From Chthonomonadaceae bacterium (lineage in GTDB: Bacteria; Armatimonadota; Fimbriimonadia; Fimbriimonadales; Fimbriimonadaceae), in assembly GCA_016788345.1 (NCBI GenBank), contig JAEURO010000002.1, forward strand, positions 1 to 45,919: a DNA stretch of 45,919 bases. The letters run 5' to 3'. Shown one piece after another: positions 13,567-17,938 of the stretch (within the stretch, counting starts at the first letter, position 1; the number at the start of each line of letters is the position of its first letter). Below the pieces are notes generated by a model. That model saw nothing but the letters and a program-made list of their open reading frames with translations, had not been told where the DNA came from and did not search any database. A program made the translations under genes and the position numbers.

Positions 13567-14853
13567 TTGAAGAAATGGTTGATCGCGTTTGCGGCTAGCG
13601 CCGCGCTTATTGGATGTGGCGGCGGCGGTGGTGTCGGTGGGGGCACCTCGGGTAGCGGTGGTGGCGGTGGCGGAGGCGGCGGAAGAGGACTTCCGACTCC
13701 GAACCTTGGGAGCACTGCGCAAGCCCAGATACTCTTTTTGTCCGGACAGGGCCGGCGCGGCATCGTGTCGCAGATTGCGGTCCTTGAAAATATCCGACTC
13801 TTTAATTCTGTCACTGACTTTGCTCCTAGGGAACAGAATGTCGGGTCGCCCATCCGGGTCAAGCTTGACGCTTACACCTTGAACCAATTCGTGTTCGATG
13901 TGCCGTTGGTGGCAGGCGGACCTTCAAAACTGTTCAGCAAGTACCCGTTTGAAGTCGCAAAAATCGATCAAGAAGAAGACGGCGTCGTGTCGACAGTCTT
14001 CGGGGGCCCCCCGGTACTTATCAACCCATTCTTTGATCTTGATTTCAAGCTGTTCCCTGGCCGTCAGACCACTCTTCAGGTCGTTTTGAACGACGCAACC
14101 TTGGGCTTCAACGGTACAGATGGAGTCGTGTTCGACCGTGACCAATTCGAGCGTGAGAACTATGCGCCGTTCAACAACAAAATGAACGCGTTTCTGAGCG
14201 ACATGTTCATGTTCGATGTGTCGCAGCTCCCTGCGAACCAGCGACCGCCGGTCTCGTCGGGCGGCAAGGCGAGCATGGTGCTGTTCTCCGGAGACAGTAT
14301 TGGCGTTGCGAGCGCATTTAAGAACGACAAGAACGGTGTCCCCGCCGCTACGTTCGATTATCTGAGCCCGGTCGCTATCGATTCCGGCATTATGCGCCAG
14401 CCACAGATCGTGGGCGGGCGTCAGGCGCCTGGGATATATACAGTCCTAGAGCCAAATCCGACAGATCCGTTCGGGAACTCTAAAATCCTCGCGTTGAAAG
14501 GAACGTACCGGGCTTATACGGAAGTCCTCAGCAACCTGAGCGATTTTGCAATGGTCGCGATTCCGACAACGAGATCGTTGAAGACAAACCAGGTCGTGGT
14601 TGTTAATCGGAATTCATCGGGCGTCATCACTGCCATGTGGCAAGGGGTCGTCGACTACACGACGAATGCGACAGGCGATATCAGACTGTACAGCCTTGAT
14701 CAACTGCCAGATGCCTCGGCGACGCCGCGGGCTACCGGCAAGATCTCGATGACAAGGCAGAACGGTCAAGTGAAGCAAGGGACGTTCACGATCACGTCTT
14801 CGCCGGCCGACTTTCCGTTCCCCAAAACGGGCGGTTTCGTCGTCCTGCGCTAG
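13567..14853 (+). CDS. Lipoprotein with poly-glycine linker, upstream of dop
   Basis: 428 residues from a TTG start. The N-terminus MKKWLIAFAASAALIGC is a lipoprotein signal peptide with lipobox L-I-G-C, so Cys17 should be lipidated. A 25-residue Gly/Ser stretch follows, a flexible tether, then a large beta-rich region with no motif I recognise (e.g. IRVKLDAYTLNQFVFDVPLVAGG, GIYTVLEPNPTDPFGNSKILALKGTYRAYTE). No ATG is available in frame near the signal peptide, and the nearest other candidate is CTG 13543. Its stop is 3 bases before dop, so it is very likely co-transcribed with the UBact genes. The function is unknown, and the coupling may be coincidental. Confidence 0.72.
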   Translation: MKKWLIAFAASAALIGCGGGGGVGGGTSGSGGGGGGGGGRGLPTPNLGSTAQAQILFLSGQGRRGIVSQIAVLENIRLFNSVTDFAPREQNVGSPIRVKLDAYTLNQFVFDVPLVAGGPSKLFSKYPFEVAKIDQEEDGVVSTVFGGPPVLINPFFDLDFKLFPGRQTTLQVVLNDATLGFNGTDGVVFDRDQFERENYAPFNNKMNAFLSDMFMFDVSQLPANQRPPVSSGGKASMVLFSGDSIGVASAFKNDKNGVPAATFDYLSPVAIDSGIMRQPQIVGGRQAPGIYTVLEPNPTDPFGNSKILALKGTYRAYTEVLSNLSDFAMVAIPTTRSLKTNQVVVVNRNSSGVITAMWQGVVDYTTNATGDIRLYSLDQLPDASATPRATGKISMTRQNGQVKQGTFTITSSPADFPFPKTGGFVVLR

Positions 14854-14856
14854 CCA

Positions 14857-16320
14857 ATGTCTCGGGTCCTCTTCGGGCTGGAAACCGAATATGGGTTCAC
14901 CGTCGAGGGCCATGGGCCTGCTGAGCAGATCGAAGACGCCGTAGCCTTCGTCCGCTGTGCAGACCAAGATTGCTGGGTCGGTTGGGACTACAGTCACGAG
15001 ACACCTAGGGCAGACCTTCGTGGTTTCTCTGTCAACCGGCTTCAACAGGATCCATTGGACGCAAAGTTCGATGCGGGCCGAGGGGCCTGGTCAGACCAAG
15101 ATATCCGCTCTGACAGGGTTTTGTGGAACGGTGCCAGGTTCTATAACGACCATGGCCATCCCGAATACTCGACCCCAGAATGTTGGTCCCTCGACACCCT
15201 GGCCGCTGCAGAAGCCGAGGGTGACGGCTTTGTTTTGGCAACGGCCCGAAAGTTTGAGTCACATATTGGCAGGCGCGTCAAGGTCTACAAGAACAACTCC
15301 GACGGCCATGGAGCATCGTTCGGAACTCACGAAAACTACCTTGTCCCTAGGTCGATTGGGTTCGACCTGCTCTATTCCGCCCTTGTGCCGATTTTAGTTG
15401 CGCGGACGGTCGTCTGCGGAGCAGGTAAGTGTGGAAGCGAGGCCGGTGCCCCTTGCAATTATCAATTGTCCCAAAGGGCAGATTTTATGGTTTCGAGGGC
15501 GTCGGTGGACACACTGTTTAGCCGGCCCGTCTTCAACACTCGGGACGAGTCGCATTCAGACCCTCGGTCGTGGATACGGTTGCACGTGATTTGTGGTGAT
15601 GCGAACAGAATTCCCGTCGCAACTTTGCGAAAGTTTGCATTTGTAAGGCTAGGCATATGGCTGGCACTCGCCGGAGAATGCCCAAAATGGCCCTTGTCAG
15701 ACCCACCGGCATCCATGAAGGCGGTCAGCCGTGATCTCTCCGCCAAGGGTGAGATCGGGTTAGAAGGTCACAAATGGACGACCACTTTCGAGATTCTATC
15801 CTCATATGTCGAACACGGAGAAAGGATTCTAGATCCGTCTCTACCAGACATGTGTGAGACCCTTGCGGTGTGCCGGACTGCGCTTGAGGATCTCGAAGCC
15901 GTCGTTGTTTGCAAGCCCGGCGCAGGACGTACGATCGATTGGATGGTGAAGAAGACCATGCTAGAAGGGGTCATGCAGCAGGCAGGGTTGACTTGGGACA
16001 GCCCAGAGATCGCCTCCTATGCACTGGCTTACCACGACCTGGATCCAAACGAAAGCCTTTACACAGGCCTTGTCGACACAGGGTTTGTCGATAGGATCGA
16101 GCCGCCGTTGCCCGAATCCTCGACCGCTAGGACGCGTTCGATGGCCAGGGAGGTCGCGGTCAGAAAGTTTCCACACGAGCTGACTGGGGTGTCTTGGGGT
16201 CGGTTGGCGTTTGGAGACCGGGGATCGGTGGACTTGAGGCCCGAGATCGTGTATCCTGATGAACTCTCTGAGTGCCAGAGCGTAGAAGAGTTTATCAACA
16301 TGATCGAGGCCCTGAAATGA
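14857..16320 (+). CDS. dop: Dop-type deamidase/deconjugase for a Pup-like modifier
   Basis: 487 residues of the Pup ligase/deamidase (glutamine-synthetase-like) fold. The nucleotide-binding start FGLETEYGFT (6-15) is present, then the Dop-specific stretch WDYSHETPRADLRGF (43-57) that PafA lacks. NGARFYNDHGHPEYSTPEC (91-109) includes Asp98, equivalent to the Dop catalytic Asp. KNNSDGHGASFGTHENYLV (145-163) and SQRADF...FNTRDESHSDP follow. In Pup systems Dop deamidates the C-terminal Gln of the modifier and removes it from conjugates. The Gln-ending modifier gene next door fits this. It overlaps that gene by ATGA. Assignment to Dop over PafA rests on the Dop-loop segment and the DHxHPEY form. 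Confidence 0.9.
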   Translation: MSRVLFGLETEYGFTVEGHGPAEQIEDAVAFVRCADQDCWVGWDYSHETPRADLRGFSVNRLQQDPLDAKFDAGRGAWSDQDIRSDRVLWNGARFYNDHGHPEYSTPECWSLDTLAAAEAEGDGFVLATARKFESHIGRRVKVYKNNSDGHGASFGTHENYLVPRSIGFDLLYSALVPILVARTVVCGAGKCGSEAGAPCNYQLSQRADFMVSRASVDTLFSRPVFNTRDESHSDPRSWIRLHVICGDANRIPVATLRKFAFVRLGIWLALAGECPKWPLSDPPASMKAVSRDLSAKGEIGLEGHKWTTTFEILSSYVEHGERILDPSLPDMCETLAVCRTALEDLEAVVVCKPGAGRTIDWMVKKTMLEGVMQQAGLTWDSPEIASYALAYHDLDPNESLYTGLVDTGFVDRIEPPLPESSTARTRSMAREVAVRKFPHELTGVSWGRLAFGDRGSVDLRPEIVYPDELSECQSVEEFINMIEALK

Positions 16321-16502
16321 TTTTGCAGAGCGACCGACAGTTGCGGAGGGACACTGGAGAACCCCGCCACAGTTCTCCTGGCGACGATGGGCCGTCGAAG
16401 CCGGACGTCACAAGACCGGGCCTGCCAGATGAACTCTTGAAGAGGATGAAGAAAGTCGACCCTGACCAAGCCAAGAAGTATCGACAGCGGTCTGGGCAAT
16501 GA
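16317..16502 (+). CDS. UBact, Pup-like ubiquitin-like protein modifier
   Basis: A 61-residue, highly charged, Pro/Gly-rich protein predicted to be largely disordered. It has no Cys or Trp. The first half (DTGEPRHSSPGDDGPSKPD) is spacer-like. The C-terminal third is a helix, LPDELLKRMKKVDPDQ, followed by the modifier tail KKYRQRSGQ. Ending in (Y)RQRSG plus Glu/Gln, instead of Pup's Gly-Gly-Glu/Gln, is the mark of UBact. The terminal Gln61 would need deamidation to Glu by Dop before ligation to lysines. The ATG overlaps the dop stop and the TGA overlaps the prcB ATG, which strongly supports translation of this short frame. The role as a proteasome-targeting tag is inferred from Pup. Confidence 0.9.
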   Translation: MILQSDRQLRRDTGEPRHSSPGDDGPSKPDVTRPGLPDELLKRMKKVDPDQAKKYRQRSGQ

Positions 16503-17227
16503 AGGTGCCTCTCTCGCAAGATTTTTCTCGGCTGGTCGAGTTTTCACCTGTTTCTTCGCCGGAGCAGACAGTCCACGGCACAACAGTTTTGGCGACTAGG
16601 TTTGACAAGGGCGTTGCGGTCATTGCCGACCGGCGAGCGACGATGGGCAATCTCATTATGTATGAGCATGCGGAAAAGATCTTACCGCTCGACAAAACTA
16701 CGCTTGTGGCGGTGAGCGGCGCATATGCCAAATCTATAGAGACCGGGCGCTATTTGCGTCACGCGTTTAAGTACTACGAAAGGCTGAACTTGGTGGAGAT
16801 TTCGACTGAGGGCAAACTAACAGAAATTTCCCGCGCACTCCAGGCCAATATGGCGGTGAGCGCTGATGGAAACGGAGTGTTCCTTCCAATTGCCGCGTCG
16901 TACGATCCACGCTCAAAGGCGTTTGGCGTATATTTCTTTGATTTGGCCGGAGCTCGGTTCCAGAGCTCTGGATATGCCTGCGCCGGGTCTGGTTCCGAAA
17001 GGATCAGGGGTGTCTTTGAATACTTGATTCGGATCAAAGGCCCATTTGAGAGCCGGCCTTTGGACGATGTGTTGTCTGACGACCTGGTCATGCTCGACAT
17101 CGCGTCTGAGCTTGATTCGGCCACAGGTGGATGGCGCAAAACCCTCCCATCGGTCTTTGTCCTAACTGAAAGCGGGTACACCGAGTACGAACAGAAGGAA
17201 CTGAGTCGTCTTGTCGCAAAACTGTGA
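16499..17227 (+). CDS. prcB: 20S proteasome beta subunit
   Basis: 242 residues, an Ntn-hydrolase of the bacterial 20S core. A 27-residue propeptide ends HG, and Thr28 of HGTTVLATRFDKGVAVIADRRATMGN is the predicted nucleophile (Thr1). The catalytic partners are in register: Asp44 (Asp17), Arg46 (Arg19) and Lys60 (Lys33, in HAEKI). The C-terminal SGYACAGSGSERI and DSATGG match actinobacterial PrcB. It should degrade proteins fed by an ATPase ring, here probably those tagged with UBact. The start overlaps the UBact stop by 4 bases. The gene for the alpha subunit is not adjacent, since the next gene is an HD protein, so PrcA must be elsewhere or absent. Confidence 0.93.
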   Translation: MKVPLSQDFSRLVEFSPVSSPEQTVHGTTVLATRFDKGVAVIADRRATMGNLIMYEHAEKILPLDKTTLVAVSGAYAKSIETGRYLRHAFKYYERLNLVEISTEGKLTEISRALQANMAVSADGNGVFLPIAASYDPRSKAFGVYFFDLAGARFQSSGYACAGSGSERIRGVFEYLIRIKGPFESRPLDDVLSDDLVMLDIASELDSATGGWRKTLPSVFVLTESGYTEYEQKELSRLVAKL

Positions 17228-17248: not shown

Positions 17249-17938
17249 ATGTCAGTCACAAGTGGTCGATCGCCGCGCCCAGTTGTCTTAAGGGACATCA
17301 AGGGCAGCCCCAAGGTCAGATCGTTGATCGATGGTGCCAACGACATGATGAAGGCGATGGGTTATACCGAGCACGGCCATCGGCACGTAGAGGTTGTTGC
17401 AGGGATAACCCGGTACATCTTGGAGAAACTGGAGTCTCCAGACCGGTACGTGGAACTGTCTATGATCGCGGCCCACTTGCACGACATTGGCAATGTCATC
17501 AACAGGATCGACCACCCTTTGACGGGGGCGAACTTGGCCTACCAACTCCTTAACGAGCTTGGAATGCCAGTGCCTGAGATTTCACTAATTCTGGGTGCGA
17601 TCGGCAACCATGAGGAGCTTGCAGGAGCGCCGATCAGTTTAATGGGGGCGGCCGTCATCATTGCAGACAAGAGCGACGTCCATCGAACTAGGGTACAGAA
17701 CCCGATCCTGGAAACTTTCGACATCCATGACCGGGTGAATTACGCTGTCACAAAGAGCCGGGTCGACATGGACACAACGACAAAGACGATCGCTTTGAAG
17801 CTTGATATCGACCAGACGTTCGCCACGGTGATGGAGTACTTCGAAATCTTTCTGTCGCGAATGGTGATGTGCAGAAAGGCAGCTCAGTTTTTTGGCTACA
17901 GATTCACCCTAGAAGCCAATGGAACGCACCTGGAGTGA
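17249..17938 (+). CDS. HD-domain phosphohydrolase-like protein
   Basis: 229 residues with the HD metal-site pattern: HGHRHV (His46), HLHDIGN (His78-Asp79), a middle His in GAIGNHEEL, and a late Asp140 in IIADKSDVHRTRV. HD proteins hydrolyse phosphomonoesters, phosphodiesters or nucleotides; the substrate is unknown. The C-terminal ~75 residues (KTIALKLDIDQTFATVMEYFEIFLSRMVMCRKAAQFFGYRFTLEANG) form an additional beta-alpha domain. The ATG is 21 bases after prcB on the same strand, so it is probably the last gene of the UBact operon. Convergent with the nucleotidyltransferase gene, 9 bases apart. Confidence 0.78.
   Translation: MSVTSGRSPRPVVLRDIKGSPKVRSLIDGANDMMKAMGYTEHGHRHVEVVAGITRYILEKLESPDRYVELSMIAAHLHDIGNVINRIDHPLTGANLAYQLLNELGMPVPEISLILGAIGNHEELAGAPISLMGAAVIIADKSDVHRTRVQNPILETFDIHDRVNYAVTKSRVDMDTTTKTIALKLDIDQTFATVMEYFEIFLSRMVMCRKAAQFFGYRFTLEANGTHLE

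Follow-up and report, generated by a model that had tools for sequence, protein, structure and literature searches.

What is the 61-codon frame that lies between a dop gene and prcB in the window (the whole stretch of DNA analyzed here, 45,919 nucleotides of contig JAEURO010000002.1), and does it belong to a protein-tagging system? All three genes are on the forward strand: dop (14857–16320; 487 aa), predicted to encode a deamidase/depupylase-type enzyme acting here on UBact; ubact (16317–16502), encoding a 61-aa UBact modifier with the C-terminus YRQRSGQ; and prcB (16499–17227; 242 aa), encoding a proteasome beta subunit. We read the locus, with a probability of about 0.93, as the UBact operon of Fimbriimonadaceae-like Armatimonadota, which would encode a Pup-like tagging and proteasome system; the gene identities, their co-occurrence, their joint loss in some genomes and the strict Q/E ending of the modifier are all observed directly.

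Each pair of neighboring genes shares the four bases ATGA, as read from the bases. At 16317–16320, the ubact ATG (16317–16319) overlaps the dop TGA (16318–16320), and at 16499–16502, the prcB ATG (16499–16501) overlaps the ubact TGA (16500–16502), with the first A of this ATGA serving as the third base of CAA, the codon of the terminal Gln of UBact. Thus, the 4-base overlaps reported in the earlier note are exact, and its description of the three genes as fused has to be dropped: they overlap, with no fusion. Among the class members, an in-frame ATGA is found at the dop/ubact junction in 58 of 87 and at the end of ubact in 58 of 91. The overlaps probably keep the deamidase/depupylase, the tag and the beta subunit translationally coupled. 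An HD-domain gene at 17249–17938 was considered as a further operon member and rejected, no homologue of it having been found at the loci of relatives.

The 61-aa product, MILQSDRQLRRDTGEPRHSSPGDDGPSKPDVTRPGLPDELLKRMKKVDPDQAKKYRQRSGQ, matches both UBact models above their curated cut-offs, PF20513 with 77.1 bits (cut-off 27.8; E = 8.5e-22) and NF033388 with 73.9 bits (cut-off 35; E = 8.5e-21). The match extends to the last profile position, and the protein ends in YRQRSGQ, that is, with RSG followed by Q/E as the last residue. Because of these matches and the recurrence of this gene order within the class, a chance open frame is excluded; the start codon is backed by the proteins of relatives, which start at a similar position. 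A charge-hydropathy comparison places the protein on the disordered side (mean hydropathy 0.322 versus a boundary of 0.437), which agrees with the disordered 61-residue protein described previously from the letters. That description had also singled out an ending in YRQRSGQ rather than Gly-Gly-Gln, which is correct but not unusual, SGQ being the norm in this family. Among solved structures, no homologue of UBact was found. With UBact as defined by PF20513 and NF033388, the protein shares its length, the disordered N-terminus, the core LLKRMKKVDPDQAKKYRQRSG followed by Q/E, and the association with Dop and the proteasome; the differences concern context only (the upstream lipoprotein gene and the unlinked prcA and pafA) and nothing essential. 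Judged by its sequence, the 61-aa protein is a bona fide UBact and the system is of a kind already described. The first description of UBact dates from 2017 (Lehmann et al., doi 10.1016/j.bbrc.2017.01.037, according to the citation in PMC12751074), and both Pfam and NCBIfam models exist, so that the novelty assigned to the locus in the earlier note, as an under-described system, was overstated. What the present analysis adds is the spread of UBact across the class, the frequent switching between Q and E at its terminus, the lack of tyrosine in the ATPase tail, the lipoprotein gene linked to dop and, in two genomes, a diverged UBact copy in tandem.

Within the class, 100 of 113 genomes carry a single UBact (84 of 88 among those of good quality), and phylum-wide, UBact occurs in 167 of 291 genomes. 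The gene lies beside dop at almost every locus examined. The homologue in related genomes on which the UBact proposal had been made to depend is thus widespread. Relatives with named records belong to Fimbriimonadaceae, Fimbriimonadales, other Armatimonadota and some Verrucomicrobia, and the proposed presence of UBact in Armatimonadota, the phylum from which this DNA comes, holds. The occurrence of Dop/PafA in Armatimonadetes was earlier called very sporadic (PMC7947786); our survey changes this picture, the UBact system being present in most genomes of the class. The gene order is lipoprotein-dop-ubact-prcB in the family of the window (f1), where neither prcA nor pafA is linked to ubact, and dop-ubact-prcB-prcA in family f3; in f4, these last four genes come first and then a second gene of the Pup-ligase family. 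In family f2, prcB lies beside ubact in some genomes (G002, G003) and elsewhere does not (four loci). Open frames of up to 574 codons in five genomes (G063, G071 and G082–G084) were considered as Dop-UBact fusions and rejected, given that the Dop frame differs from the UBact frame, which makes them overlapping frames. In G064 and G065, some 2.4 kb separate dop from ubact; in G064, this interval contains a frame of 706 aa on the opposite strand (L081: 2774–4894, forward), which by eye resembles a repeat protein whose C-terminus is thioredoxin-like.

The system shares with actinobacterial pupylation (Pup, Dop, PafA, Mpa and PrcBA) the enzyme families, the terminal Q/E, a proteasome-linked operon and the Dop-loop. 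These common enzymes and the similar operon logic are also what a canonical actinobacterial Pup operon, recently acquired, would bring along, but we regard such an origin as extremely improbable. In the profile search, only UBact was reported for the 61-aa protein, with no match to Pup at E ≤ 1; in the class tree, the Dop encoded in the window groups within its own genus, and UBact is nearly universal in the class. Furthermore, whereas Pup ends in GG(Q/E), UBact here ends in SG(Q/E), specifically SGQ, and the predicted tryptic remnant on lysine is accordingly SGE (+273.096 Da) for UBact versus GGE (+243.086 Da) for Pup.

The genes on both sides of ubact were identified as proposed in the earlier note. 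The upstream product matches PF03136 with 372 bits, and scores higher with the Dop model TIGR03688 (E = 2.1e-92, 310.4 bits) than with the PafA model (E = 1.4e-66, 225 bits); its best match in the PDB is 4b0r, a Dop (E = 9.4e-67). The active-site segment is DHGHPEYSTPE, with NDHGHPEYSTPE aligned with YVDHAHPEYSTPE of 4b0r, and WDYSHETPRADLRGF aligns with WDFEEENPLRDARGF, the Dop-loop of that structure. The higher Dop-model score, the aligned Dop-loop and the DHxHPEYSTPE segment thus identify the gene as dop rather than pafA, and both the DHxHPEY-type active site and the Dop-loop noted earlier are borne out by the alignment with a solved Dop. The score of 310.4 bits lies below the TIGR03688 equivalog cut-off of 492.3 bits, probably because the model was set on actinobacterial sequences. 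Downstream, PrcB matches PF00227 (78.9 bits) and TIGR03690 (E = 6.9e-30) and aligns with PrcB chains in the PDB. A 27-aa propeptide precedes Thr28 (HGTT), the predicted catalytic Thr1; alignments with mature actinobacterial PrcB chains from the PDB begin at residue 28, Thr28 corresponding to residue 1, and Asp17 and Lys33 (mature numbering) are present, by count.

The last residue of UBact, after an invariant YRQRSG, is Q in 87 and E in 64 genomes and nothing else in 151 of 151 (91 from the class and 60 from the rest of the phylum, the phylum set having been found by profile, with the last residue not presupposed). When mapped onto a tree of Dop from 87 class members, the Q/E state requires 19 changes, 13 of which are forced by the well-supported branches alone, compared to 22.5 on average for shuffled labels; relative to ancestry, the state is therefore distributed almost at random. 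Of the last 26 columns of UBact, none changes as often as column −1, and columns −2 to −7 do not change at all. The switching may reflect neutral drift or adaptive regulation. In two species pairs (L036 with E and L047 with Q; L164 with Q and L165 with E), the last 55 residues are identical save for the final one. We also looked for residues of Dop that covary with the Q/E state, and found none: among 767 residue tests, the best uncorrected p was 1.3e-4, and none of the six top cases was significant across independent pairs.

This pattern bears on the possibility that the frame encodes a regulatory or spacer peptide, never conjugated, within a dop-prcB operon. The frame is indeed short, disordered by composition and placed between two overlapping genes, but a peptide of this kind is hard to reconcile with a UBact family match up to the last residue, with the invariant YRQRSG and exclusive Q/E ending across the 151 genomes, or with the persistence of ubact without an adjacent prcB at the four f2 loci, and we consider it very improbable. 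The invariant segment and two-state ending fit a conjugated UBact. In Pup, the terminal residue is the site that is deamidated and conjugated (PMC3511204, PMC12288473), and both endings are known: Gln needs deamidation by Dop, whereas Glu skips this step, with dop retained for tag removal (PMC3511204, PMC12288473, PMC2588565). Our observations fit a scheme in which the two UBact endings would be interchangeable and deamidation optional, the tag-removing activity of Dop being the part that is kept. A C-terminal Q/E is an already known signature, G[EQ]-ending Pup homologues, some of them non-actinobacterial, having been described by Iyer et al. in 2008 (PMC2588565); in comparison, the Q/E switching is counted here on the tree of one class and compared with neighboring columns. 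The Q/E species pairs offer a direct test, in a natural setting, of what deamidation by Dop is for.

The host genome (2.56 Mb in 317 contigs, 88.7% complete) encodes Dop, PafA, PrcA, PrcB and an ATPase, with PafA present as its N-terminal third (the first 157 codons, truncated by the end of contig C60; TIGR03686, E = 9e-26). PrcA is encoded on contig C294 (TIGR03691, E = 5.3e-24), and contig C111 carries the gene for a 550-aa AAA ATPase, which combines both proteasomal OB domains with the AAA module (PF17758, PF16450 and PF00004), as in Mpa/ARC, and matches TIGR03689 with 442.6 bits (cut-off 504.75). As with Dop, the scores of PrcA, PrcB and the ATPase fall short of the respective NCBIfam equivalog cut-offs. 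The predicted pathway thus appears essentially complete as far as the assembly goes, scattered over four contigs. By analogy with the homologous Pup pathway, from which every reaction step is borrowed, UBact would be made with a terminal Gln, which Dop would deamidate to Glu. PafA would then phosphorylate the gamma-carboxylate of this Glu and link UBact to lysines of substrates, and the Mpa/ARC-type ATPase would grip the disordered tag, threading the attached substrate into the core formed by PrcA and PrcB. Dop is expected to take the UBact tag off as well.

The C-terminus of this ATPase differs from that of the actinobacterial enzyme. In all 16 UBact-type ATPases read (from L005 and L141–L156), the last two residues are V/I followed by V/I/L, the ATPase of the host genome ending in ..RTTVV; the GQYL gate-opening motif is missing, and the penultimate tyrosine of GQYL/HbYX is absent in 16 of 16. 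In alignment with a solved actinobacterial PrcA, the lysine of the K-x-x-E-x-Y-D-R segment, which we take to be the pocket lysine, is kept. The aliphatic tail may fill the PrcA pocket, or another contact may serve. In Actinobacteria, the GQYL/HbYX tail functions in docking and gate opening (PMC8755798), and docking of the Mycobacterium ATPase relies on a C-terminal GQYL, in which the tyrosine is penultimate (PMC8755798, PMC12288473); in contrast to GQYL, the UBact-type tail consists of two aliphatic residues. This departure raises the question of how UBact-type proteasomes are opened.

The tyrosine-free tail in 16 of 16 genomes could also indicate that UBact conjugation chiefly regulates or stores proteins rather than marking them for degradation, with the proteasome largely separate, as Pup conjugation may do in proteasome-less corynebacteria; the unlinked prcA and pafA in the window's family point the same way. 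We consider this alternative unlikely, as prcB directly overlaps ubact, a proteasome-family subunit scores above the cut-off in every UBact-bearing genome checked, and the components disappear together. Two genomes of the window's family (G067 and G068; 1.5 Mb, 97% complete) are without UBact, both Pup-ligase-type enzymes, a proteasome-family match and an OB-type ATPase, and this joint loss of UBact, Dop/PafA, proteasome and ATPase argues that the parts are tied functionally. A proteasome-less UBact system in f2 was considered separately and rejected, given that 8 of 8 f2 genomes have proteasome-family matches above the cut-off.

Upstream of dop, and ending with a stop codon 3 nt before the dop start codon, is a lipoprotein gene (13567–14853, forward strand; 428 aa, TTG start), whose product has a lipobox (..LIGC) and a Gly-rich linker. 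The gene adjoins dop in 10 of 10 UBact-bearing f1 genomes searched and in most f1 loci read, and was found neither in the sampled f2–f5 genomes nor in the two UBact-less f1 genomes. The lipoprotein has no match in Pfam or NCBIfam, and a Pfam search across 44 members returned none that was credible. A structural model predicted from 44 sequences is confident (pLDDT 84.8) and almost all beta, and matched no PDB fold with E ≤ 0.001. Since a lipoprotein would reside outside the cytoplasm, simple direct contact with UBact is not expected, and the linkage in the operon may be regulatory or may reflect operon history.

Taken further, UBact could represent a mechanistically distinct branch of pupylation, with a gate-opening tail free of tyrosine, an optional deamidation step, many times gained or lost through single Q/E changes amid fixed neighboring residues, and, in Fimbriimonadaceae, a surface lipoprotein of the operon tied to tagging; we put this forward tentatively, and as the less probable outcome.

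Some genomes contain more than one UBact-like gene. L164 and L165 each carry a diverged tandem copy of this kind between ubact and prcB (2399–2596 on the reverse strand and 2119–2316 on the forward strand, respectively); the second copies end in YEQRSGQ and YKQRPGQ, respectively, and the first copy ends in Q in L164 and in E in L165. Three UBact matches were obtained in G135, of which two were read (L161 and L162); they lie on different contigs and both end in Q, and, as contamination of this genome is 6%, a mixture of strains is possible.
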